Shown piece after piece: positions 26,466 through 38,048 of a stretch of 40,555 nt of DNA (position 1 is the first letter of the stretch; every line of letters begins with the position of its first letter). Below the pieces are notes generated by a model. That model did no database searches. It was given only the letters and a program-made list of their open reading frames with translations, and had not been told where the DNA came from. The translations under genes and the position numbers were made by a program. Source of the stretch: Methanobacteriota archaeon (GTDB lineage: Archaea > Thermoplasmatota > Poseidoniia > Poseidoniales > Thalassarchaeaceae); contig PSPW01000010.1 in assembly GCA_004195615.1 (NCBI GenBank), forward strand, positions 1 through 40,555, given 5' to 3'.

Positions 26466-27287
26466 ATGCTAGGTGAACGAAAGATGGCATCTCGACAAAA
26501 GACATTGGTCCTAATACTAGTCACGGTTTTCGTTGCTGGGTCGAGTGAGGCATTGCACTCAGGAGTCGGTGGAAACGCTAACGGGCAGGGAGATGTTTCC
26601 CTAGCTGGTTGCACGTGTCATGCCGAAGAGCCGGACAATTCCGTAACCGTAATCTTGGATGGCGTGCCTTTCCACTATGTCTCGGATACTGCATATGAAA
26701 TGAAGTTGCAGCTAATAGGTGGCCCAGAGGCAAATTTAGAATCATATACTGGAGGATTCTCAATGAGAGTGAGTTTGGGTTCGCTGGGTCCATCTGAGGG
26801 TTTCGAGTCTCTAGTTCAGAACTGGGAAGATGATGCGTCGACCCTCACACACACTGATTCTGGTTCAAGCACCGCTGACAGATCGTGGATGTTCAGATGG
26901 ACTAGCCCTGCAGAGGGATCGGGTACGGTAGACTTCACAATTGCTGGAAATTCAGTAAATGGAGATATGACTCCATCCAGCCTAGACCGCTGGAATCGTC
27001 TTACGACCAGTGTTGACGAGGGCGAAGACAATGGCAGAACAAAGACGGTTTTCTCGGGCAATGGAGACATCATCCCCCCCGCCCCGGTGGGGGGTCATAC
27101 AGACCTCCACCATATGGGGGCAAAACTTCTGGCCCACTGGCTAGGACTTCTGGGATTCGGGGCAGTTATGCTAGTCATCTTGTTCTGCGGCCTTTTCCTC
27201 AGATATGGATTCTCCACGCATTACAAGGGAAGAAGCAATCTGCTTAGGCTAAGAATAAAGCATCTAAGGAGAGGTGATCAACTATGA
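26466..27287 (+). CDS. Membrane-anchored secreted protein with CxCH motif (Reeler-like)
   Basis: A 273-residue protein. It has an N-terminal signal peptide (TLVLILVTVFVAG, about 13-25). A GCTCH motif follows (Cys49, Cys51, His52), then a ~150-residue beta-rich extracellular domain and a C-terminal TM (about 221-246) with a basic cytosolic tail. The CTCH plus the following strand pattern (VTVILDGVPF) resembles Reeler-like or cytochrome-associated domains. It has only one residue between the cysteines, so it is not a standard CxxCH c-type heme site. It is the first gene of the respiratory cluster and overlaps the next start (ATGA). An electron-carrier or assembly role at the outer face is plausible but unproven. 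Confidence 0.7.
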   Translation: MLGERKMASRQKTLVLILVTVFVAGSSEALHSGVGGNANGQGDVSLAGCTCHAEEPDNSVTVILDGVPFHYVSDTAYEMKLQLIGGPEANLESYTGGFSMRVSLGSLGPSEGFESLVQNWEDDASTLTHTDSGSSTADRSWMFRWTSPAEGSGTVDFTIAGNSVNGDMTPSSLDRWNRLTTSVDEGEDNGRTKTVFSGNGDIIPPAPVGGHTDLHHMGAKLLAHWLGLLGFGAVMLVILFCGLFLRYGFSTHYKGRSNLLRLRIKHLRRGDQL

Positions 27288-27733
27288 AAGACGACACTGT
27301 GATGATGCTTCTTCGACAAGTTAAGTCTGGAGAGGTGAGCGTCGAAGATGCTAGGGTGGCTCTAGAAGATGCTACGCTGACGGAAGAGTCATTCGCTGCG
27401 GCGATTAATCATGGAGTTTTCAACGAGGTTAAGCCCGGTACTATCGTTAGGGCCAGCCTCGCTCCTTCTGGAGATTCATGGCTAATCATTCTAGTTGGGC
27501 TATGGGGGTTAATGTGGACTCTCTATTGGGCTGGGGCATTGGCTTACGGCCTGTTCAACAACTGGGATCAGCAGTTGCTCTCATTCAACCTTGCAATGAC
27601 TATGCTAACTCTCATCATCATGGGGATAGTGTACTTGAAATATGTTCTACCGGATGTGGTAATTGTCAAGCATCGCAGGAACAAGTACATCACGAGCCAT
27701 GATACAAATTCTTGGAAAAAATACGAGGTATGA
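27284..27733 (+). CDS. Two-TM membrane protein of the Rieske/cytochrome b cluster
   Basis: A 149-residue protein. A helical cytosolic N-terminus (1-60, with KSGEVSVEDARVAL) precedes two TM helices at about 67-90 and 99-121. A short charged tail follows. No known family was recognised. It is translationally coupled on both sides: its ATG overlaps the previous stop and its stop overlaps the Rieske ATG (ATGA at 27730). That places it as a likely accessory subunit of the complex. Confidence 0.75.
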   Translation: MKDDTVMMLLRQVKSGEVSVEDARVALEDATLTEESFAAAINHGVFNEVKPGTIVRASLAPSGDSWLIILVGLWGLMWTLYWAGALAYGLFNNWDQQLLSFNLAMTMLTLIIMGIVYLKYVLPDVVIVKHRRNKYITSHDTNSWKKYEV

Positions 27734-28584
27734 GTATGGCAAGGAAGTTCAAGTTACGTCCAGTTGGTTCACAGAAGGAGAGTGTGCATGAGAGGAGCGG
27801 AGCCATAGATAGGAGGGAGTTCATGAGACTGTCATTCAATACGGCTGCTGGCTTGATAACAACGGCATCCTTAGGGAGTGTTGGGTTTGCCTCATTCCTA
27901 ATGGGGCAGGAAGGAAGTAGCAGTTCAGACTCATCTATCAAGTTCTACGTCCCGAAGGGGTCCGACGTCTGGTACAACAATATGGACAAACAACCAATGA
28001 CGACTCAGGCATTCATTGACGAATCTGTGAATTCCACCACGGGAATGGTAGGGGCTGCCGGACTATGGTCTGGATTGCCAATCATTGCAACCTACATCCC
28101 ACACGAGGAGAACAAGAACAAGCCATTAGAAGCAAACTCCCCGCGATTCCAGATGATGGATGGATACACCTCCGGGGGCGCTTATGTCGGATCTGGATAC
28201 GAGATTGAGGAAAAGGAAGAGTTCGCGTCGCTGAACATTCATGACAACATGATCATCGTGTTTGCGAGATGCCCGCACCTCTGCTGCATCCCCGGTTGGC
28301 AACTCGTCAATAATGACTACACGGCTGATAGTTGGTTGCCAGGAGGGACTGACTCGAGCGGGAACAAATCTTTCTGTATTTGCCACTCTAGCAGATACGA
28401 TCACACGGTGATAGAGAAGAACACGGCAAGGAACCGGTCCAATGGGCAAGAATTCGATTTCATTGGGGTCAAGAAGACTGGTGGGCCGGCACCCTACGGG
28501 ATGCCACTGATTCCATTCTCGGTGAATGACGGAACCATTGAGGCGCTTCCGGACTTCATGGACTGGTACACATTCTGCGGTTAG
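27730..28584 (+). CDS. Rieske [2Fe-2S] protein of a cytochrome bc-type complex
   Basis: A 284-residue protein. A twin-arginine-like signal anchor DRREFMRLSFNTAAG (28-42) and hydrophobic helix 40-58 precede the Rieske domain. Cluster ligands are Cys181 and His183 in CPHLCC, and Cys216 and His219 in CICHS. Cys186 and Cys218 would form the Rieske disulfide. The gap between the two motifs (~32 residues) is longer than the usual 15-17, so the cluster-binding loop carries an insertion. It passes electrons from quinol at the outer face of the membrane. The start ATG 27730 is set by the ATGA overlap; the frame is open from a TTG at 27712. Confidence 0.93.
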   Translation: MSMARKFKLRPVGSQKESVHERSGAIDRREFMRLSFNTAAGLITTASLGSVGFASFLMGQEGSSSSDSSIKFYVPKGSDVWYNNMDKQPMTTQAFIDESVNSTTGMVGAAGLWSGLPIIATYIPHEENKNKPLEANSPRFQMMDGYTSGGAYVGSGYEIEEKEEFASLNIHDNMIIVFARCPHLCCIPGWQLVNNDYTADSWLPGGTDSSGNKSFCICHSSRYDHTVIEKNTARNRSNGQEFDFIGVKKTGGPAPYGMPLIPFSVNDGTIEALPDFMDWYTFCG

Positions 28585-28593
28585 GTGAAAAAA

Positions 28594-29466
28594 ATGATAC
28601 AATTCTGGTTCCTATGGATTTTCATCGCGGTCGTCGTTGTTATCGTCGCATTCACTCTGAGGAGAGAGCGTGACGACCTCCCCAGGAAAGACATCCTGAG
28701 AGCAGTAGAGACGAATGCTGGCAGCATGGGCCTCGCTGAGAAGCTGTTCCTTTGGGCTTTCTCATGGCTAGACACCAGATTCAGGATCCAGGACTACTGG
28801 GGGATGAGCAGAGACTCTTACTACAGCATGCACAGGCAAATGCCACTCACTCATGCTGAGAAGTACAAGCTTAGGATAATCTGGTACTGGTACCCACTCT
28901 ACTGCCTGGGTGGAATTTCTTTCATTGCATTCATAATCCTCGTCATCAGTGGTACGATTCTAGGATTCTACTACGTTCCCGGGGGGGACTTGAATTCGGA
29001 CCCGACGCCTGCCTATGCATCGATGGAGTTCATCATGCTGGAGTTGCCGTTCGGATATATCATCAGATCGATACATCACTGGGGAACACACTTCTTCGTT
29101 GCTGCTGTCTTCCTCCACATGTGTAGAGTCTACTTCACCGGTGCTTACAGGAACCCGAGAGAGCTTAACTGGCTTATTGGGGTGTCCTTGATGTTCTTCT
29201 CGATTTTCTTCGGTTACTCGGGGTACCTGCTCCCTTGGGACAGCCTAGCGTTCGGTGCGGCCACCATTGGGATAAACATGGCAATGGCTACCCCACTGGT
29301 TGGGGAGTGGGTCGCAAGTGCAATGTTCGGTGGGACAACACTTACTGGGCAGACTGTGGTGAGGATGTACTTCCTCCACGTATTCGTACTGCCGCTAATC
29401 GTGACGGTACTCATACTGACGCACCTCTTCATCGTCTGGGTACAGGGAATTGCGGAGCCGCACTGA
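28594..29466 (+). CDS. petB: Cytochrome b6-type subunit with extra N-terminal TM
   Basis: A 290-residue membrane protein. An additional N-terminal TM (WFLWIFIAVVVVIVAF) is followed by the four-helix diheme core. Heme ligands are His161 and His175 (HHWGTHFFVAAVFLH, spacing 13), and His262 and His277 (FLHVFVLPLIVTVLILTH, spacing 14). Spacing of 14 in the second pair is typical of cytochrome b6 and related split cytochromes. It forms the quinol-oxidising core together with the subunit-IV part of the next protein. A GTG at 28585 immediately after the Rieske stop is a possible alternative start. Confidence 0.92.
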   Translation: MIQFWFLWIFIAVVVVIVAFTLRRERDDLPRKDILRAVETNAGSMGLAEKLFLWAFSWLDTRFRIQDYWGMSRDSYYSMHRQMPLTHAEKYKLRIIWYWYPLYCLGGISFIAFIILVISGTILGFYYVPGGDLNSDPTPAYASMEFIMLELPFGYIIRSIHHWGTHFFVAAVFLHMCRVYFTGAYRNPRELNWLIGVSLMFFSIFFGYSGYLLPWDSLAFGAATIGINMAMATPLVGEWVASAMFGGTTLTGQTVVRMYFLHVFVLPLIVTVLILTHLFIVWVQGIAEPH

Positions 29467-29475
29467 GGTGAATCA

Positions 29476-32289
29476 ATGGGAATGATGGAAAAATTTGGCA
29501 GAATCGCTGACACATACATCAGCGAGAAGGAGCAGTTGCTCGGAGCGGAAGAAGAGAGGAAGAGGGTTTTCACTGGGCATGCATTCTGGCCCACTGAAGT
29601 CCTCAGAGACACCATTGTCTTCGCAGTCATAGTAATGGTAATCGCATTTTACTCGTGGATCATCCCTCCGCCTTTGCACAATGCCGCCGACCCTTATGCA
29701 CAGGCTGGTTTCGTTTTCCCAGACTGGTACGTCCTGTTTTCATACGGGTACCTGAGATGGGGAGAATACCTACCTCAATTCGTCATTCCCGCTGGACCGA
29801 TAGGCGCATTCTTCGGACAGCCAGTAGTCTCCTGGAATGCGGGCGTCTGGGGGGCGATGATCACGGGACTACCTGTTGGGGTCCTAGCACTGCCTCCATT
29901 CATCATTGGGAAGAGAGAGAAGAGGGGTGTCGAAGACCCGTGGTTCGCTACGGCTGGAGCCGTGTATCTGGCACATGTCTGGTTCATCTCAGTCTTCTCT
30001 ATCAATATCTTCCTCGAGATGTATGCTAAGAATCGTACCGACTATTGTTGGTCGAGCGCTCACGGTGGATTCAATTGCGGCACTCAAGCGCCGTGGACTG
30101 CGGACGTCTTCAATGCAGTCCCTTGGATACTCACAGGAGTCTTCGTCTTCACGCTACTCTACTTCTCCGTCAGGAAATTCATGGTCGGACCCATGGGTTC
30201 ACGACTAACGCCAATTCTCGGCAGGCAGGTGGCTGTGGGGTCCTTGGTCGCCACCTTACTTCTGTGCACTGTGACATGGCCGGTTTACGAGAACGGTTTC
30301 TGGAACCAGCGAGGGCTGGGGACGATGGGATTCTGGGAGTACCAGTATGACGCAAAGCTAGTCGATCTGGACGGAATAAGAGGGCAGCCTGGTGATATCC
30401 TGATTCACACTGAAAAAGGTCCGGTGTGGGAGGAGTGGGGAGACGATTGCTTGCCATACGAACAGACTAGCTCGCTGGACATCTGGGAATCCATGGAAGA
30501 GGGTACTGTGCATACTGATTGGTGCGTTCTCCCGGCAATGTATTGGGTCAACTGGGGTAATTTCCAACCGACTCGAAGCAAGATACTGGACTTCAGCGGA
30601 GCCAACGACCATGCAGATACACAGACCTCTAGGAACATAGGCGCTAATGACGTCATCTACCAAGGCCCTCAAGACGGTTCTCCAATCGGGATCTCCGAGT
30701 CCATACAGTTCGAAGTCGAGGATCTGGGTGTCTCCAGCGTACCGACTGACGTCGGCTGCAACTTCAGGACAACCGTGCGTGGCACCGGGGTACACTCCCA
30801 GAGCCTAGTGCTGACCGATGAAGCGGGAGAGACCCTCTGGATGAACAGCGGTTCGTCCTGCGACTCAGGAACCATATACCTCGACTCTGGGGCGTCATAC
30901 ACAGTGACATTCACCACCACCTCCGAGGGGGTGAACGATAGCGTCACCATGATCTCTGACTTCTCCGCCGTCGCATACCAGCCACTTCTGCTCGCCGAAG
31001 ACGGCACTGCCTTAATCAGGTCCGAAGTAAGCCACAGCGACGAGGAATTATCCACCATGTCAATAGCGAATCCGACGTTCAAAAAGAATCCCAAGAGCCT
31101 AGATGCGAAGCTAATCTACTCTCTGTTCATCCCTTGCTTAGGAGTAGGTGCGCTCGTTTTCGTGATGCTCAGGAGCATGGCTCGCGGCTACGAGTGGGAG
31201 ATGAATAAGTGCTACGGTTGCGACCTATGCGATGATGCATGTCCTGTCAGGCTGTTCAATGCGGGTGACAAACTCAACATAATCTACAACACTTGGAACA
31301 ACGAAGACGACGGTGTGCCGCTATACTCCTGCCTGACATGTACGGCCTGCACGAATGCCTGCCCACAGCTGGTGGACTACGACTCATACATCGACATCAG
31401 GAGGAACCTCGTAGTAGGAGGACCGCCAGCAACGGAGATCCCCCATACCGTCCTACAGGCAGTACTCGCTGCAGAGGCCGAGGAGGATGCGGATGACTCA
31501 TTCATCCCCGTGGAGGACTACCCGCTCGACTCCAGCATTGGCTACTACCCCGGCTGCGTCGACTACATCGACCAGGAGATGGTGTTCAGCCATGTAAACA
31601 AGGGGAGTATGGATCTGGGTGATGCAACGACATCAGCATTCACGATTTTCGAGGAGATGGGAGAGGACGTCACCTACCTCGGTAGGGACTTCCTGAAGTG
31701 CTGTGGCCACGATCAGAAGTGGCAGGGAATGAACGAGGTGTTCGAGAAGCTCAAGACGTACAACCAGAAGAAGCTGGGCGAGAGCGGCATCGAGACTCTC
31801 GTTACATCTTGTGCTGAGTGCTTTAGGACATTCGCCTTGGACTACGAGCTAGACGACATGAAGGTCATGCACACAACCGAGTTCCTAATCGAGAAGGGTT
31901 TCGATATGGAATTGAAGTCCAGCGACGACATCACGGTCACCTACCACGACCCATGTCGGCTCGGGAGGCAGATGAACATCTACGACGAGCCCCGTGACCT
32001 CATTGCCTCTGTCGATGGAGTCAGCCTGGTTGAGATGGAACACACCGGTGAAGATGCGTTGTGCTGCGGCGTCTCCAGCATGATGTCATGCAACGAGAAT
32101 AGCAGATCACTGAGAGTCCAGAGGTTCGATGAAGTCAGAGCCACTGGTGCTGACATAATGCTGACCTCATGTCCGAAGTGTGTGGCCCACTTCGAATGCC
32201 TGAAGTTCGAGGGAGACCCTCGACATGACTTCGAGATTCTGGACGTAGTGAGCTTCCTAGCCAGGCAGATAGAAGAGTCTAGGAACTAG
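29476..32289 (+). CDS. Cytochrome b subunit IV fused to an HdrD/CCG-type iron-sulfur protein
   Basis: A 937-residue fusion. Residues 36-270 match the C-terminal half of cytochrome b (subunit IV), with five TM helices and a PDWY motif at 82-85, equivalent to PEWY at the quinol-oxidation site. Residues about 280-545 are a beta-rich domain, probably outside the cell, followed by TM 546-568. The cytosolic end has two 4Fe-4S motifs (CYGCDLCDDACP ~578; CLTCTACTNACP ~619). Two CCG domains of the HdrD/GlpC/DsrK type follow (PGC ~694 with KCCG ~742; DPC ~827 with LCCG ~862). Family members pass electrons between quinones and thiol/disulfide or soluble carriers. No frameshift or internal stop separates the parts. 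Confidence 0.93.
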   Translation: MGMMEKFGRIADTYISEKEQLLGAEEERKRVFTGHAFWPTEVLRDTIVFAVIVMVIAFYSWIIPPPLHNAADPYAQAGFVFPDWYVLFSYGYLRWGEYLPQFVIPAGPIGAFFGQPVVSWNAGVWGAMITGLPVGVLALPPFIIGKREKRGVEDPWFATAGAVYLAHVWFISVFSINIFLEMYAKNRTDYCWSSAHGGFNCGTQAPWTADVFNAVPWILTGVFVFTLLYFSVRKFMVGPMGSRLTPILGRQVAVGSLVATLLLCTVTWPVYENGFWNQRGLGTMGFWEYQYDAKLVDLDGIRGQPGDILIHTEKGPVWEEWGDDCLPYEQTSSLDIWESMEEGTVHTDWCVLPAMYWVNWGNFQPTRSKILDFSGANDHADTQTSRNIGANDVIYQGPQDGSPIGISESIQFEVEDLGVSSVPTDVGCNFRTTVRGTGVHSQSLVLTDEAGETLWMNSGSSCDSGTIYLDSGASYTVTFTTTSEGVNDSVTMISDFSAVAYQPLLLAEDGTALIRSEVSHSDEELSTMSIANPTFKKNPKSLDAKLIYSLFIPCLGVGALVFVMLRSMARGYEWEMNKCYGCDLCDDACPVRLFNAGDKLNIIYNTWNNEDDGVPLYSCLTCTACTNACPQLVDYDSYIDIRRNLVVGGPPATEIPHTVLQAVLAAEAEEDADDSFIPVEDYPLDSSIGYYPGCVDYIDQEMVFSHVNKGSMDLGDATTSAFTIFEEMGEDVTYLGRDFLKCCGHDQKWQGMNEVFEKLKTYNQKKLGESGIETLVTSCAECFRTFALDYELDDMKVMHTTEFLIEKGFDMELKSSDDITVTYHDPCRLGRQMNIYDEPRDLIASVDGVSLVEMEHTGEDALCCGVSSMMSCNENSRSLRVQRFDEVRATGADIMLTSCPKCVAHFECLKFEGDPRHDFEILDVVSFLARQIEESRN

Positions 32290-32362: not shown

Positions 32363-32629
32363 TCACTGAATGAATGCGAACATCGCCGAGACCGATGACA
32401 GGGTCATGTTGATCACCACGCCCCATAGGGTTGCCTTCGCGAATCTGTAGTCCTCGTATCCCAGTGCCACCAAGTAGAGGAAGAATCCGATTAGACCCCC
32501 ACAAGCCAGTGAAATCCAAGCTGCGGAAACGCTCAGGTAGATTGCCATGACGAGCCAGATGGCGCCACCCTGCAAGAGTCCTAGCCAGACCATAGGGTCT
32601 ACCCACCAGGTTGATTCAGGTACGTCCAT
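32363..32629 (-). CDS. Small three-TM membrane protein
   Basis: An 88-residue hydrophobic protein on the opposite strand to the respiratory genes. Predicted helices lie at about 12-32, 35-54 and 66-86. No family was recognised. The competing minus frame at 32286-32606 lacks this regular hydrophobic pattern. It is divergent from the ferredoxin gene and convergent with the fusion gene, with a 73-base gap. Confidence 0.6.
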   Translation of the reverse strand: MDVPESTWWVDPMVWLGLLQGGAIWLVMAIYLSVSAAWISLACGGLIGFFLYLVALGYEDYRFAKATLWGVVINMTLSSVSAMFAFIQ

Positions 32630-32704: not shown

Positions 32705-33037
32705 ATGACCAAGGTTGGTGACGTCCTGAAGAGGAGGACTGTGGAGCAGTCCAGAATTAGGATGCAGCTAAATTCAGTGAGGGCCGAGGAGGAGGCATTG
32801 CTGAAGGGCGGAGAGGACACTGTCGCTTGGGTCAAGGAGGAGCTATGCATTGGATGCGACCAGTGCACCATAGTGTGCGAAGATGATGCAATAGAGCTCT
32901 ACGACACCCCTCTAGCCAACCCCATCATGGAAGTGGACGTCAACAGGAAGGCAAGGATACTGAGAGACCCATGCACGGGCTGCAAGATTTGCGTCCTTGC
33001 ATGCCCGACCGATGCCATCATCATGATCGACAGGTGA
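32705..33037 (+). CDS. 2x[4Fe-4S] ferredoxin
   Basis: A 110-residue protein. A ~45-residue charged helical N-terminus is followed by two cluster motifs: CIGCDQCTIVCEDDAI (about 48-63; the fourth Cys is followed by Glu rather than Pro) and CTGCKICVLACPTDAI. This is the bacterial-type dicluster ferredoxin fold with a ~25-residue insertion between the motifs. It would carry low-potential electrons in the cytosol. The position, just after the cytochrome b/HdrD-like fusion, suggests it may be that module's electron partner. Confidence 0.85.
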   Translation: MTKVGDVLKRRTVEQSRIRMQLNSVRAEEEALLKGGEDTVAWVKEELCIGCDQCTIVCEDDAIELYDTPLANPIMEVDVNRKARILRDPCTGCKICVLACPTDAIIMIDR

Positions 33038-33041
33038 GAGA

Positions 33042-33308
33042 ATGGGGGTTGACGATCCAGTTAGATTCGGGGCGGAATTCGGACCCCATAGGACCAAGCG
33101 GGCAAGTGGAGTGTCTCTTTCTACGTTCAAGACATTGGTATGGGTTTCCAACCTAGGTGGGCTAATCCTATTCGCAATAGGAATGGAGTTGATAATCAGA
33201 GGATCTTTCTGGTTCGGCATCGCTTGCATAGTGACTGGAGTCGCAATAGCCCTATTCCCATCAAATTACGAAATCGTTGGCATGGAAGAGATGGAAGTAG
33301 AGGAATGA
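33042..33308 (+). CDS. Small two-TM membrane protein
   Basis: An 88-residue protein with two hydrophobic helices (LVWVSNLGGLILFAIGMELI, and FWFGIACIVTGVAIALFP, separated by a tight RGS turn) and an acidic C-terminus. It starts 4 bases after the ferredoxin stop and its own stop overlaps the ogt start as ATGA. It therefore belongs to the same transcript. Function is unknown; a membrane docking or assembly role for the ferredoxin is possible. Confidence 0.7.
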   Translation: MGVDDPVRFGAEFGPHRTKRASGVSLSTFKTLVWVSNLGGLILFAIGMELIIRGSFWFGIACIVTGVAIALFPSNYEIVGMEEMEVEE

Positions 33309-34458: not shown

Positions 34459-35355
34459 TCATTCTCCACTTTGGACTATAGATGAACTCAGGATTTGAAT
34501 CGCCTCATTCACAGTTATAGAACCGATACATAGTTTGGCAATTATTTCATCTATTTCTGAGTGAGTAACTAACAGCGAGTCCCATTCAGATATCAGTCTC
34601 TCCCTCATTATCATCTCATTTCTTTCAGACCTTGGTTCACAAGACTCAATGGTTGAAATCAATTTCTCGACCCCCACTCCCTCTAGAGCTGAGACAAGTA
34701 GAACCTCTCGACTGTCATCTCCAGAAAGAGCCAGTGATGTTCGGATGCTCTGAGCCGACGAAACAGCCCGGGGCAAATCTGATTTGTTTATTGCGATCAC
34801 ATCGGCCAGTTCGAGAATACCTGCCTTCTCTGCCTGAATGATATCTCCCCTATCTGGGCCATCCACTAGAAGTAGCCGATCAACCAATGCGGCAATTCGA
34901 AACTCGGATTGACCAGTGCCAACAGTCTCGACCACGATTCGAGTCCATCCACAGAGAGATAGGGCCTGGCACATTGACCAAATATATGGAGAAATCCCTC
35001 CAGGGATATTTCCAGAGGCTATTGACCTAACAAACACGGTTTCCCCTAAGTCATCACCCTCCATCCGAATTCTATCAGCGAGAAACGAGCCACCCGAGAT
35101 TGGCGAGGTTGGGTCCAGAGCCAGTACTGCTACACTCTCTCCCGCGGTAACCCAATGCTTCACCATCTGGCCTATGAGTGTTGATTTCCCAGCCCCAGGA
35201 GGACCTGTGACGCCTAGAGTCCAGCTTGATTCAGAATGAAATTTAGGAATCTGTGGAGACTCGGCAATCTTTGTCATGAGTCTGGACAGGCTTCTTCGAT
35301 CTCCTGATATTGCTAATTCTAGGAGTTCGTTAATGTTACTCAATTCCAGTGCCAC
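34459..35355 (-). CDS. meaB: MeaB/ArgK-type GTPase, methylmalonyl-CoA mutase chaperone
   Basis: A 298-residue G3E-family P-loop GTPase. Walker A is GPPGAGKST (about 51-59). LALDPTSPISGGSFLADRIRM forms the family-specific switch, ETVGTGQSE is the Walker B/switch II region, and NKSD is the guanine-specificity motif. MeaB protects and reloads the B12 cofactor of methylmalonyl-CoA mutase. The GTG start at 35355 overlaps the end of the mutase B12-subunit gene by 16 bases; no in-frame ATG is close. The gene order with the B12 subunit is a common archaeal arrangement and supports the function. Confidence 0.94.
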   Translation of the reverse strand: MALELSNINELLELAISGDRRSLSRLMTKIAESPQIPKFHSESSWTLGVTGPPGAGKSTLIGQMVKHWVTAGESVAVLALDPTSPISGGSFLADRIRMEGDDLGETVFVRSIASGNIPGGISPYIWSMCQALSLCGWTRIVVETVGTGQSEFRIAALVDRLLLVDGPDRGDIIQAEKAGILELADVIAINKSDLPRAVSSAQSIRTSLALSGDDSREVLLVSALEGVGVEKLISTIESCEPRSERNEMIMRERLISEWDSLLVTHSEIDEIIAKLCIGSITVNEAIQILSSSIVQSGE

Positions 35356-35777
35356 CCCAAATCGTCTCCGACTCCGATTGGATGTTTGTTTTGTTTTCTG
35401 AGCAGGGCTTCTTCCAAGAAATCCAAAACATCTGAAGTTGGAGTTCCTGGTCCAAAAACAGCCCTCACGCCAGATTTGTAGAGAAGTTCGAGGTCCCGCT
35501 CAGGGATGATCCCTCCTGCGAAAACGATGACGTTTCCTAGCCCGGCTTCCCTCAGGTGATTGCAAATCTTCGGAATCAGTGAGTCATGGGCCCCAGAAAG
35601 AGTGGACAGCCCGAGAACTTCTGCGTCTTCGTCATTTACAATCCTAACAATATCAGATGGGGTCTTTCTGAGTCCAGTGTAGATTACGTCGTGGCCGCCA
35701 TCCCTGAGTGCTCTAGCAATGACCTTGGCCCCTCGGTCATGTCCATCTAGACCTGGTTTAGCAATCACAACTCGCAT
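35340..35777 (-). CDS. Methylmalonyl-CoA mutase, cobalamin-binding small subunit
   Basis: A 145-residue B12-binding domain. It has KPGLDGHDRGAKVIARALRD with the DxHxxG motif (Asp11, His13, Gly16; His13 would be the lower axial ligand to cobalt), then GLSTLSGAH and VIVFAGGIIP. In archaea the catalytic TIM-barrel subunit is often a separate gene; it is not found in this window. The mutase interconverts methylmalonyl-CoA and succinyl-CoA. The gene is divergent from the carboxyltransferase at 35880, the enzyme that makes the mutase's upstream metabolite. Confidence 0.94.
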   Translation of the reverse strand: MRVVIAKPGLDGHDRGAKVIARALRDGGHDVIYTGLRKTPSDIVRIVNDEDAEVLGLSTLSGAHDSLIPKICNHLREAGLGNVIVFAGGIIPERDLELLYKSGVRAVFGPGTPTSDVLDFLEEALLRKQNKHPIGVGDDLGWHWN

Positions 35778-35879
35778 GTTTCAATGGGTTGCAAATAGCA
35801 ATATGACTTCAAGCAACCGGACAAGAAATTCTTGCTCCCCTTAGGAATGCTCATGGGCGGCCTGTTCCCATCGCACCCC

Positions 35880-37433
35880 ATGAGTGGAAACTCCGACAAG
35901 ATTGACGACCTAAGACGTCGAAAGACTAAGTCGCAATCTGGCGGGGGACAGAAACGGATTTCAGCACAGCATGCCAAAGGAAAGATGACTGCTAGGGAAC
36001 GGATAGAGGAATTGCTTGATTCCGACTCATTCACCGAAGTGGATGCATTGGTTGAGCACCGATGTAGAGACTTCGACATGGATAGAAACGTGATTCCAGG
36101 GGATGGTGTGGTTTGTGGTCATGGCACTATCGATGGCAGGCTTGTTTACTGCTTTGCCCAGGACTTCACCGTTTACGGCGGTTCTCTTGGTGAAATGCAC
36201 GGTCTGAAGATATGCAAGATTCTAGATATGGCAGTAAAGACAGGAGCACCAGTAATCGGATTGAATGACAGCGGCGGGGCAAGGATACAGGAAGGAGTTG
36301 CAAGCCTAGGTTCGTATGCAGAGATTTTCTTCAGGAATGTAAGGGCTAGCGGTGTCATCCCCCAGATCTCTGTAATTATGGGGCCATGTGCGGGTGGTGC
36401 CGTATACTCTCCTGCAATTACTGATTTCGTGGTGATGGTCGAGGGGACGTCGCACATGTTCATTACTGGTCCAGAAGTAATCAAGACAGTAACGAACGAG
36501 GAAGTTGGTTTTGAAGACCTGGGGGGAGCATTCACTCATGCCACGAAGTCGGGCGTAACCCACTTTACAGCAAAGGACGACAATGGTGCATTGGAAATCG
36601 TCAGGGAATTGGTGGGACTAATTCCCTCAAACAACCTACAAAAGGCGCCTATCGTAGAAAGCAAAGACCCACTTGGGCGAAAATGCGAATCACTCGACTC
36701 ACTAATCCCAGAGGACCCGAGTCGGCCCTATGACATGTCAGATGTAATCGAAGATGTCTTGGACTCTGGAAGCTTCTTGGAGATTCAAGATAGTTTTGCT
36801 CCAAATATCATCATTGGCCTAGGTAGGCTTGGCGGTCAATCAATTGGAATCGTGGCGAATCAACCAATGCACTTAGCAGGCTGTCTGGATATAGACGCGT
36901 CTGTGAAGGCTGCAAGGTTTGTTCGTTTCTGTGATGCCTTCAATATCCCTCTGCTGACATTTGTTGATGTCCCTGGTTTTCTTCCGGGGGCCAGTCAAGA
37001 GTGGGGTGGGATCATCAGGCACGGGGCCAAACTTCTCTATGCCTTTGCCGAGGCAACCGTCCCGAAACTTACTGTCATTACGAGAAAGGCATATGGTGGG
37101 GCGTATGATGTGATGTCTTCCAAACATATTCGCGGCGATTACAACATCGCGTGGCCATCTGCAGAGCTTGCTGTAATGGGGGCCAAGGGTGCTGTACATA
37201 TCATTCATAGAAGAAGAATTGAGAATTCAAGAAACCCCGATCAAGAGCGAGAGAGGCTTGAAGACGACTACGAGGAGACCTTTGCGAATCCGTACAAGGC
37301 AGCTGCCTTGGGGTATCTGGATGATGTAGTCAGACCATCGGAAACACGAGCCATTCTTGTGAAAGCATTAGGGGCAATTCTGGAAAAGGAAGAGCCACGT
37401 CCGGAGAAGAAACATGGGAATATTCCGTTGTGA
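35880..37433 (+). CDS. pccB: Acyl-CoA (propionyl-CoA) carboxylase, carboxyltransferase subunit
   Basis: A 517-residue crotonase-fold protein of the PccB/AccD5 class. It starts like other members ([19 protein letters not shown], then [17 protein letters not shown]). It shows [17 protein letters not shown] (acyl-CoA oxyanion region), [12 protein letters not shown], and in the second half [21 protein letters not shown] and [11 protein letters not shown] (carboxybiotin side). It transfers CO2 from carboxybiotin to propionyl- or acetyl-CoA. ATG 35880 fits the family start; the frame is open from TTG 35832 with ATG 35847. Its stop overlaps a GTG of the next small gene. Confidence 0.94.
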
Positions 37434-37633
37434 GATATATGAGTAAAGAAAAAGAGATGAGGATTATTGTAGCCGTAATTTCATCGGTTCTACTCGAGAA
37501 CGAGTTTGGCGAATCAATCAAACCCTCGATAGGAAGGGGAGAGGGGTGTTCTTGGTCTGTTTCTCATAAGAGGATGATCCTGGGTAAGACCCCGTTGATA
37601 AAGGCAAGAACGGTTAGGAGCACAAAGAGGTGA
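37430..37633 (+). CDS. Small protein of the acyl-CoA carboxylase operon, epsilon-subunit-like
   Basis: A 67-residue basic protein between the carboxyltransferase and the biotin carrier. A helix ([18 protein letters not shown]) is followed by a short Trp-containing strand ([13 protein letters not shown]). This layout, an early helix and a late W..s.R segment, is loosely like the epsilon/PccX linker subunits of other acyl-CoA carboxylases. The resemblance is positional rather than firm. The GTG at 37430 overlaps the pccB stop (GTGA); ATG 37439 is an alternative. The stop is followed within 4 bases by the carrier start. Confidence 0.6.
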
Positions 37634-37637
37634 TAAT

Positions 37638-38048
37638 TTGTCTGAAAAGAAGAAAGTCACTGTTGACGGAGAAGAGTTCGAAGTAGAAATTGAGTTCGAA
37701 GAAGGCAATTGGGAGATTTCAATTGATGGGAAAACCTACACTGTTGAGGTAGAAGGGAGTTCAAGGAATCCAACTAAGAAAAAACGCGTGGTAAAGAGTA
37801 GCGGAACCTCGGGTTCGGGGATTGTTGCTTCTGCAATTCCGGGCAAAATTGTCGCAATATTGGCATCGGAAGGGGAAGATGTTGAGGCTGGAAGTGTCGT
37901 GATTATCCTAGAGGCAATGAAGATGCAAAATGAGATTAAGGCCGCCATTGACGGACGTGTCAAGAAAATCATGTGCAAGCCGGGAGAGAGGGTCGAGGCA
38001 AATATGCCCTTGTTGGAAATATCAATTAAATTGGAAGGTGAGAATTGA
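37638..38048 (+). CDS. Biotin carboxyl carrier protein of acyl-CoA carboxylase
   Basis: A 136-residue protein. The N-terminal ~55 residues have a charged beta repeat (VTVDGEEFEVEI, then ISIDGKTYTVEVEG) and a Lys-rich linker. The C-terminal ~80 residues form the biotinyl domain, IPGKIVAILASEGEDVEAG, with LEAMKMQNEI carrying the biotinylated Lys95. It shuttles carboxybiotin between biotin carboxylase (not in this window) and the carboxyltransferase at 35880. There is no early ATG. The TTG at 37638 is preceded by AAAGAGGTGA, a good ribosome-binding site that also contains the previous stop. Confidence 0.92.
   Translation: MSEKKKVTVDGEEFEVEIEFEEGNWEISIDGKTYTVEVEGSSRNPTKKKRVVKSSGTSGSGIVASAIPGKIVAILASEGEDVEAGSVVIILEAMKMQNEIKAAIDGRVKKIMCKPGERVEANMPLLEISIKLEGEN

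Follow-up and report, generated by a model that had tools for sequence, protein, structure and literature searches.

A Rieske/cytochrome b6 operon of Thermoplasmatota archaea with an HdrD-type iron-sulfur module fused to subunit IV: a candidate cytosolic electron port

The window considered here, a 40,555-nucleotide stretch of contig PSPW01000010.1 from a Thermoplasmatota archaeon, contains a Rieske/cytochrome b6 operon in which subunit IV of cytochrome b continues, within one reading frame, into an HdrD-type module of two 4Fe-4S motifs and two CCG domains. The argument builds on the architecture of this fusion gene, its ligand residues, their conservation, and the linkage of its neighbors, all of which are observed directly. 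The chances seem evenly balanced that such operons define a distinct class of complex III in the Thermoplasmatota, in which an Hdr-type wire on subunit IV would provide a third, cytosolic electron terminal via heme c_n or b_H. As to function, we tentatively favor, with slightly less than even confidence, a complex of Rieske, cytochrome b6, and subunit IV whose permanent port to the cytosol most likely passes electrons from ferredoxin to quinone. If this is true, complex III would be a ferredoxin:quinone oxidoreductase or, in reverse, a quinol-bifurcating ferredoxin reductase.

The fusion gene

The gene and its parts all lie on the forward strand:

29476..32289, forward strand: fusion gene, 937 amino acids (subunit IV, extra helix pair, beta domain, helix H, two 4Fe-4S motifs, CCG, CCG)
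29575..30039, forward strand: subunit IV core, helices E, F, and G, residues 34-188 (profile A1, hydropathy, model helices)
29719..29730, forward strand: PDWY, residues 82-85
30097..30300, forward strand: extra two-helix hairpin, residues 208-275 (hydropathy and model helices)
30301..31110, forward strand: p-side beta domain, residues 276-545, an insertion of the window's order
31111..31167, forward strand: last transmembrane helix (H-like), residues 546-564 (hydropathy, model)
31210..31362, forward strand: two 4Fe-4S motifs, Cys 579/582/585/589 and 619/622/625/629 (all eight Cys in 87/87 alignment rows)
31555..31821, forward strand: CCG domain 1 motif, Cys 694, 742, 743, 779, and 782 (alignment rows)
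31954..32181, forward strand: CCG domain 2 motif, Cys 827, 863, 864, 899, and 902 (85/85 rows with letters, 1 gap)

The initial annotation described a single uninterrupted 937-codon frame with subunit IV including PDWY, an outer beta domain, a transmembrane helix, two 4Fe-4S motifs, and two CCG domains, and both the frame and this content are borne out. In the translation of the open reading frame (ORF), the ATG is at 29476, the stop ends at 32289, and there are no internal stops. Pfam finds CCG in two stretches of the fusion and three Fer4 dicluster models, all above their cut-offs, and leaves the subunit IV half of the window's protein unrecognized. The identity of that half is established through relatives, because PF00032 is above its cut-off in the fused proteins of two of them (loci L053 and L054), and because a profile built from five relatives of the fusion (A1) matches the window in the subunit IV region (29551-30033, E 5.6e-27). 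The same profile matches the 4Fe-4S region (31168-31416, E 2.8e-31), and both matches lie within one 940-residue frame. Against the Protein Data Bank (PDB), profile A1 finds b6f subunit IV (2e74_B, 4.3e-5), the C-termini of bc1 cytochrome b (9wcx, 4.5e-9), and HdrC (7bkb_C, 1.1e-6).

Hydropathy predicts six helices: three in subunit IV, two extra, and one ahead of the clusters. The core helices span residues 45-63, 122-140, and 158-176 by hydropathy, and 40-62, 122-138, and 155-188 in the predicted model, at low confidence. The PDWY motif, which we take to be that of the Qo site, is present in all 93 loci that have a subunit IV frame (2 of the 95 loci surveyed have none). If the orientation of b6f applies to the fusion, the PDWY loop and the beta domain lie outside and the clusters inside. 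Loop charges match this orientation, with 14 K/R and 42 D/E in the beta loop and short, basic inner loops, and the paired cysteines of the beta domain also agree with an outside location (C428 and C462 in 54/54 rows, C325 and C350 in 50/54). The beta domain has no match to PDB sequences up to E 1, and its fold is not predicted with confidence. It was considered as a redox domain and rejected: by eye it has no CxxCH and only paired cysteines, besides having no PDB sequence match. Nothing corresponding to the extra hairpin lies between helix G and the final helix of L053 and L054, and L094 has extra helices of its own at that place. The first 150 or so residues of the beta-less fusion in genome G083 (L053:5577-7943) hold four further predicted helices.

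Conservation and distribution

The window's order is most likely Poseidoniales (probably Marine Group II), and its family f3 relatives are Marine Group III-like, of the same class but another order. The survey for the same fusion that the initial annotation proposed finds an unbroken frame in 71 of the 81 members of the order in the phylum sample (own genome included), 63 of them as one alignment and 8 as two alignments in one frame; of the other ten, two are frame-broken and eight have contig ends, a gene split over two contigs, or no copy. In a sample of 60 genomes, all match somehow, and 48, again with the window's own, have the unbroken full-length frame; the remaining 12 comprise four with broken frames, six with only the paralogue described below, and two with fragments or a gene split over contigs. 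Breaks are located near residues 355-367 (G035) and 630-637 (G235) in the phylum sample; the 60-genome sample has G035 again and three genomes of the window's genus, with breaks near 550 (G001), 62-83 (G006), and 420-439 (G015). These are five breaks altogether, with no position in common. Separate genes with a stop between residues 545 and 576 were looked for, and only the break of the single genome G001 falls there.

The architecture survey covers 95 loci, with the fragments L065, L099, and L100 kept in. Subunit IV, 4Fe-4S, and CCG share one frame in 59 loci. In 23 others, subunit IV and 4Fe-4S are in one gene and CCG is in the next; these are 22 Marine Group III-like loci and L094, so that in this sister group the split is located after the 4Fe-4S part. 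Subunit IV alone is in sight in seven loci, one of which (L100) is a contig end; three are frame-broken, L074 ends before any CCG, and L065 and L099 are fragments. The beta domain is absent from L053, L054, and the f3 relatives, and some other Thermoplasmatota have the fusion whole without it. With the subunit IV profile, the phylum sample reveals the join to 4Fe-4S in families f1, f2, f3, f22, and f25, and only the subunit IV stretch in other families among the matches listed. From this distribution, what stays constant is the junction between subunit IV and the 4Fe-4S module, and the window's order has added the beta domain. Some contigs appear under two locus identifiers (for example, L053/L073, L054/L092, L029/L061, L056/L087, L057/L085, L058/L082, and L059/L081), so row and locus counts overstate the number of independent genomes.

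In a tree of cytochrome b6, with 48 of the 94 rows and 14 of the 58 from the window's order, a branch (94/87) has all six unfused rows to one side of it. Other branches set apart the window's order (99/98) and the Marine Group III-like rows (99/99) in the same way. With midpoint rooting, the f25 rows stand beside the unfused rows, and several long branches are unsure. The tree is compatible with, and does not prove, a single joining of subunit IV with an HdrC-like module.

Two loci call for comment on their source. The same-genus genome G002 has two full copies (C5:311-3061 and C17:6919-9726), one of which groups with family f2 (L068), and it is perhaps a mixed bin. Locus L086 (NZTZ01000011.1), labeled as a Chloroflexi bacterium, has a Marine Group III-like complex III locus, and the label is probably wrong. 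Viral contigs were scanned for the fusion, and none was found.

Cytochrome b6 and the Rieske protein

27712..28584, forward strand: Rieske protein (TIGR01416 7.2e-9, below cut-off; both Rieske boxes by pattern)
28585..29466, forward strand: cytochrome b6 (PF00033 2.1e-40; best PDB match 7r0w_I, 3.6e-41)
28903..28905, forward strand: Cys107 of cytochrome b6, aligned with Cys35 of b6f

The operon has the features of Rieske/cytochrome b6-subunit IV complexes, namely the four heme b histidines, a Rieske protein with both cluster boxes, and a subunit IV with helices E, F, and G and the motif P[ED]WY. Among rows with letters, heme b histidines 164 and 178 of cytochrome b6 occur in 93/93, and 265 and 280 in 94/94. 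The helix D histidines are 15 residues apart, a spacing that we take to be b6-like. The position of Cys35 in b6f is presumably that of heme c_n attachment, and the aligned position 107 is Cys in all 57 rows with letters from the window's order, in 7/7 other fused rows, and in 5 of the 23 Marine Group III-like rows, the other 18 having Ser. This amounts to 69 Cys and 18 Ser in the 87 rows of the fused groups, and the unfused rows have Thr or Ala (6/6). Similarly, His165, beside a heme b ligand, is present in 87/87 rows with letters in the fused groups but in 0/6 unfused rows. The counts for fused groups include L065 and other loci whose fusion is cut or broken. Residue 169 is His or Asn in fused groups, and Met or Gln in unfused ones. 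In two lineages (L053:8089-9975 and L054:986-3610), the N-terminus of cytochrome b6 carries Big_5 Ig-like repeats.

Pfam has no match to the window's Rieske protein. A loose pattern detects the Rieske boxes in the window and 87 of the 95 loci, and the other eight have a missing, cut, or broken Rieske gene. A scan of nine loci, as distinct from whole genomes, for a cytochrome f/c1 partner gave no ORF with CxxCH.

The iron-sulfur module and its relatives

As in HdrD and HdrBC, the module consists of two 4Fe-4S motifs and, after them, two CCG domains. The first CCG domain has Cys 694, 742, and 779 in 86/86 rows; position 743 is Cys in 66 and Ser in 20, and position 782 is Cys in 80, Gly in 5, and X in 1. 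Cys 872 and Cys 908 (window 32089-32199) lie outside the CCG motif and are likewise invariant, in 85/85 and 84/84 rows with letters.

Among solved structures, the closest relative of the module is EtfD (sequence match of the fusion 1.2e-20). According to the available text of PMC13083937, EtfD fuses an HdrD-type module to a five-helix heme b membrane domain, and its Thr539 and His583 are said to make its clusters non-catalytic. The present fusion differs on each count: its membrane part is subunit IV and not an N-terminal five-helix heme b domain, the Thr539 equivalent is position 743 (Cys in 66 and Ser in 20 of 86 rows), and the His583 equivalent is Glu781 in 14/14 rows. A paralogue in the window's own genome, L002 (G000 C11:23582-24439), matches EtfD with E 4.8e-105 and has the CPHC and CSG motifs; by eye, it does not have Cys 872 and Cys 908 at the same places. 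This genome has an EtfD-type protein together with ETF and without ETF-QO above cut-off. The premise that HdrD-type modules are separate proteins was too strong, because EtfD has one fused and the paralogue is in the window's genome too.

The fusion was also modeled with AlphaFold2 (AF2). The modeling rows comprise 72 stretches, with L099 left out and four stretches of L084 and L086 that contain X dropped; alignment A2 holds 63 of the 72 stretches and the window, and alignment A5 holds 30 hand-picked rows and P0001. The first model (mean predicted local distance difference test, or pLDDT, 54.7) had a flawed alignment, in which subunit IV rows were misplaced on b6, and was not used. The second (mean pLDDT 56.3) is good only in the CCG part, and its best Foldseek matches are EtfD, LutA, and HdrB, with EtfD 9ojn at the top (E 8.7e-11).

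The linked ferredoxin

32363-32629, opposite strand: 88-amino-acid ORF between the fusion and the ferredoxin
32705..33037, forward strand: dicluster ferredoxin, RnfB-like (family matches; best NCBIfam match RnfB)
33042..33308, forward strand: 88-amino-acid two-helix membrane protein beside the ferredoxin (hydropathy)

Family matches agree with the initial annotation that Rieske and b6 genes lie upstream of the fusion and a dicluster ferredoxin downstream; the neighbors are as it described them, but it overlooked the opposite-strand ORF between the fusion and the ferredoxin. A same-strand ferredoxin is found within 2.5 kb downstream of the fusion in 75 of the 86 loci with a CCG module, and the 11 misses are eight contig ends and the three loci of family f2 examined. 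Within the window's order, 52 of 57 loci have it, L031 has a ferredoxin on the opposite strand, and four have none (L037 and L068 are contig ends). Among the other loci, 23 of 29 have it, and each of the six misses has at most 204 bases of contig left. By tblastn, no homologue of the ferredoxin was found in six unfused loci. RnfB is above its family cut-off in none of eight genomes, and PMC6336850 reports that Marine Group II has none of the other Rnf subunits.

In L054/L092, what matches downstream is an HdrA-like protein, at its ferredoxin end. This protein (L054:5435-6379) directly follows the beta-less fusion and is cut by the contig end; it reaches 62.5 bits with NF040770, far below the cut-off. 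Genome G091 has 18 matches to this HdrA-like protein. HdrA was considered as a general partner and rejected, because it is seen only beside L054/L092.

Proposed electron transfer and its alternatives

In the complex as we envisage it, quinol would be oxidized at the usual Qo site (PDWY), with one electron passing to Rieske and on to an outer carrier and oxidase and the other crossing two hemes b. On the n-side, the last helix of subunit IV would carry two 4Fe-4S clusters just below the membrane and two CCG clusters beyond, a wire that the RnfB-like ferredoxin would feed. Electrons would most likely run from ferredoxin through the CCG and 4Fe-4S clusters to heme c_n or b_H and to quinone at the inner site. 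The low-potential ferredoxin electrons would come from 2-oxoacid oxidoreductases, so that complex III would double as a ferredoxin:quinone oxidoreductase. We infer here that the cofactor sites are occupied and that the clusters contact heme c_n or b_H, as well as which partner is used and which way the electrons flow.

This proposal is supported by the retained ligands of the hemes b, of both 4Fe-4S clusters, and of the second CCG domain, and by the Rieske boxes found by pattern. Also in its favor are the same-strand ferredoxin linkage, with no homologue found by tblastn in the six unfused loci, the residues at b6 positions 107 and 165 that mark the fused groups, EtfD as top Foldseek match, ETF in 6/6 class members alongside the EtfD-like paralogue of the window's genome, and the separate proposal for Ca. 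Angelarchaeales that ferredoxin enters at complex III (PMC9038741). The POR_N domain of 2-oxoacid:ferredoxin oxidoreductases occurs in 8/8 genomes; NuoF has no match in 6/6 class members and is found in G083 and not in G091. In EtfD, CCG clusters, two 4Fe-4S clusters, heme b, and a menaquinone site are about 4-9 A apart, as far as the available text of PMC13083937 goes, and this order is in keeping with an electron flow from the cytosol into the membrane. Because of this cluster order, the ferredoxin linkage, and the ferredoxin economy, transfer from ferredoxin to quinone is ranked first, quinol bifurcation second, and disulfide chemistry third.

Several observations weigh against ferredoxin-to-quinone transfer. 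The window's ferredoxin reaches only 43.1 of the 68.7 bits of the RnfB cut-off. Family f2 accounts for about half of the order's genomes in the phylum sample and has no same-strand ferredoxin next to the fusion in any of the three loci examined (L030, L031, and L060): that of L031 is on the opposite strand, and L030 and L060 have none. Because of these loci, the ferredoxin linkage within the order is that of family f1. No ferredoxin was found in 16 kb around the gene in L030 (the copy of G042), and G037, a complete genome, has both the ferredoxin and the small membrane protein at a distance of about 14 kb. The DUF7318 protein of one unfused relative (L095:4800-5396) has a 4Fe-4S dicluster ferredoxin domain at its start. 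Because the c_n cysteine is Ser in most Marine Group III-like rows, heme c_n cannot be required everywhere. A complex I without NuoF may already oxidize ferredoxin, which would make the port redundant, and the covariation at b6 may be one event, because the fused and the unfused rows belong to different clades. The two AF2 models are weak, and cytochrome b is not among the best 50 of the 359 Foldseek matches of the second. Finally, the cofactors, the activity, and the complex itself are predictions from sequence.

Quinol bifurcation is a possible but unlikely alternative, in which one electron would go to Rieske and the other, via heme b and the iron-sulfur wire, to ferredoxin or NAD(P), with the downhill Rieske branch providing the driving force. 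Transfer from menaquinol to ferredoxin is steeply uphill, which counts against it. No flavoprotein was found among the window's neighbors searched, and the HdrA-like neighbor of L054 has no match in the four order members searched. On the other hand, the parts list is the same, and the anammox complexes Kuste4569-74 and Kustd1480-85, with b6, a five-helix subunit IV (SUIV), and a cytoplasmic NAD(P) oxidoreductase, are proposed to bifurcate in this way in the available text of PMC12954380. The ferredoxin linkage, POR_N, and the missing NuoF fit transfer from ferredoxin to quinone at least as well as quinol splitting. Of the quinol-splitting interpretation in the initial annotation, what stands is that a Rieske/b6 operon encodes subunit IV joined to an HdrC/HdrB-like module and that the ligands of heme b, the 4Fe-4S clusters, and CCG2 are retained in the aligned rows; the thiol acceptor it allowed for is weaker, given the loss of CCG1 ligands in part of the family.

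That thiol chemistry, a quinol-dependent disulfide reductase, appears improbable. Quinol would then supply electrons that travel over the hemes and clusters to a thiol or disulfide at the CCG sites, as in HdrDE or DsrMK. The five cysteines of the second CCG domain, the two further invariant cysteines, and C743 and Glu781 in place of the non-catalytic changes of EtfD all point toward such an activity. However, some family members lack a ligand in the first CCG domain (Ser for C743 in 20/86 rows, Gly for C782 in 5/86), and the linked gene is a ferredoxin.

A slimmer chance attaches to the module receiving electrons from a flavoprotein such as ETF, as EtfD does. ETF was taken into account as a partner on the strength of the EtfD match, the best among solved structures, and ETF is indeed common (6/6 class members, 9/10 genomes overall), whereas ETF-QO is above its cut-off in none of the same ten genomes (3/14 controls pass). 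It was set low once L002 proved the closer EtfD homologue, and the His583 position is Glu in all rows compared. Because L002 is closer, ETF is common, and ETF-QO is above cut-off in none of the ten genomes, the fusion is probably not the ETF port.

Doubtful to a similar degree, and slightly more so, is an ordinary Q-cycle complex whose iron-sulfur module only senses the cytosolic redox state or steadies the complex. It would account for the retained Q-cycle ligands but not for the ferredoxin linkage, nor for eight 4Fe-4S and five CCG2 cysteines unchanged in 85-87 rows. An assembly or frameshift fusion of two genes, as the meeting of two frames near residue 550 in G001 might suggest, is rejected as having a negligible chance, because the frame is conserved, distant lineages share the join of subunit IV with the 4Fe-4S part, and the break points differ.

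Relation to known systems

Cytochrome b6f resembles the present system in being the best PDB match of b6, and in the Cys35 position, the helix D histidine spacing, the subunit IV helices, the Qo motif, and Rieske. It differs in that no cytochrome f is seen in the operon here, subunit IV runs into the iron-sulfur/CCG module, and a p-side beta domain is present. The role of heme c_n and the possible direct entry of ferredoxin electrons into b6f-type complexes (cyclic electron flow) are a long-standing question, and an iron-sulfur donor covalently built into subunit IV would make it testable in one complex. HdrDE and HdrBC share the HdrC-like dicluster and the HdrB-like CCG domains; here these are joined to cytochrome b subunit IV beside Rieske, and CCG1 is incomplete in part of the family. 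Mycobacterial EtfD (9OJN, PMC13083937), as the accessible part of its description has it, likewise attaches two 4Fe-4S motifs and two CCG domains to a membrane part; this part is its own five-helix heme b domain, Thr539 and His583 are not found here, and the ETF partner is probably served by L002.

The system of Ca. Angelarchaeales is perhaps the same: hdrD-like and rnfB-like genes lie near complex III, and ferredoxin entry through complex III is suggested (PMC9038741). There they are described as proximal genes, and the available text makes no mention of a fusion with subunit IV, the heme c_n position, or the paralogue. The anammox Rieske/cytochrome b complexes, for which bifurcation to NAD(P) is argued, have a b6-like cytochrome, SUIV, and a cytosolic iron-sulfur route for electrons, but they differ in a separate NAD(P) oxidoreductase and multiheme cytochromes and are not HdrD-type in the text available (PMC12954380). 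No cytosolic flavoprotein of the anammox type was found among the window's neighbors searched; L054 has the HdrA-like neighbor, far below cut-off.

For Marine Group II, called globally abundant in the title of PMC6336850, the available text describes a complex III specific to the group and an RnfB that stands alone, with the other Rnf subunits missing. The fusion operon is a concrete candidate for this complex III and the orphan RnfB, and we infer that the window's ferredoxin is that RnfB; if the proposed port exists, it would explain why Marine Group II archaea have an orphan RnfB. A survey of archaeal fusions gives several between Hdr subunits, and its main text does not contain 'cytochrome b' or 'Rieske' (PMC11237513); the accessible text of PMC9012536 treats HdrDE and HdrD-like proteins of methanotrophic archaea, without 'Rieske'. 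Within the literature searched, which lay outside supplementary files and most subscription journals, the available texts do not mention subunit IV fused to such a module. The association of such genes with complex III is already known from Ca. Angelarchaeales, and the subunit IV fusion is apparently new, although this is not proof of novelty.

Other genes in the window

26466..27287, forward strand: membrane-anchored choice-of-anchor V protein (NF041895 8.7e-23), in a candidate p-side carrier position
27284..27733, forward strand: small membrane protein, DUF7318-like (PF24002 26.1 bits, cut-off 27; the relative in L056 passes)

The first gene of the operon encodes the choice-of-anchor V protein, which has a C-x-C-H and may be the outer electron carrier. 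The same place holds a cytochrome c in L074:4195-4851 (PF00034) and an amicyanin-like protein in L093:2-415 (below cut-off), with a similar C-terminal helix. Downstream, at 34459-38048, are genes for MeaB, B12-binding, carboxyl transferase, and biotin carrier proteins, which presumably form a propionyl/methylmalonyl-CoA cluster.

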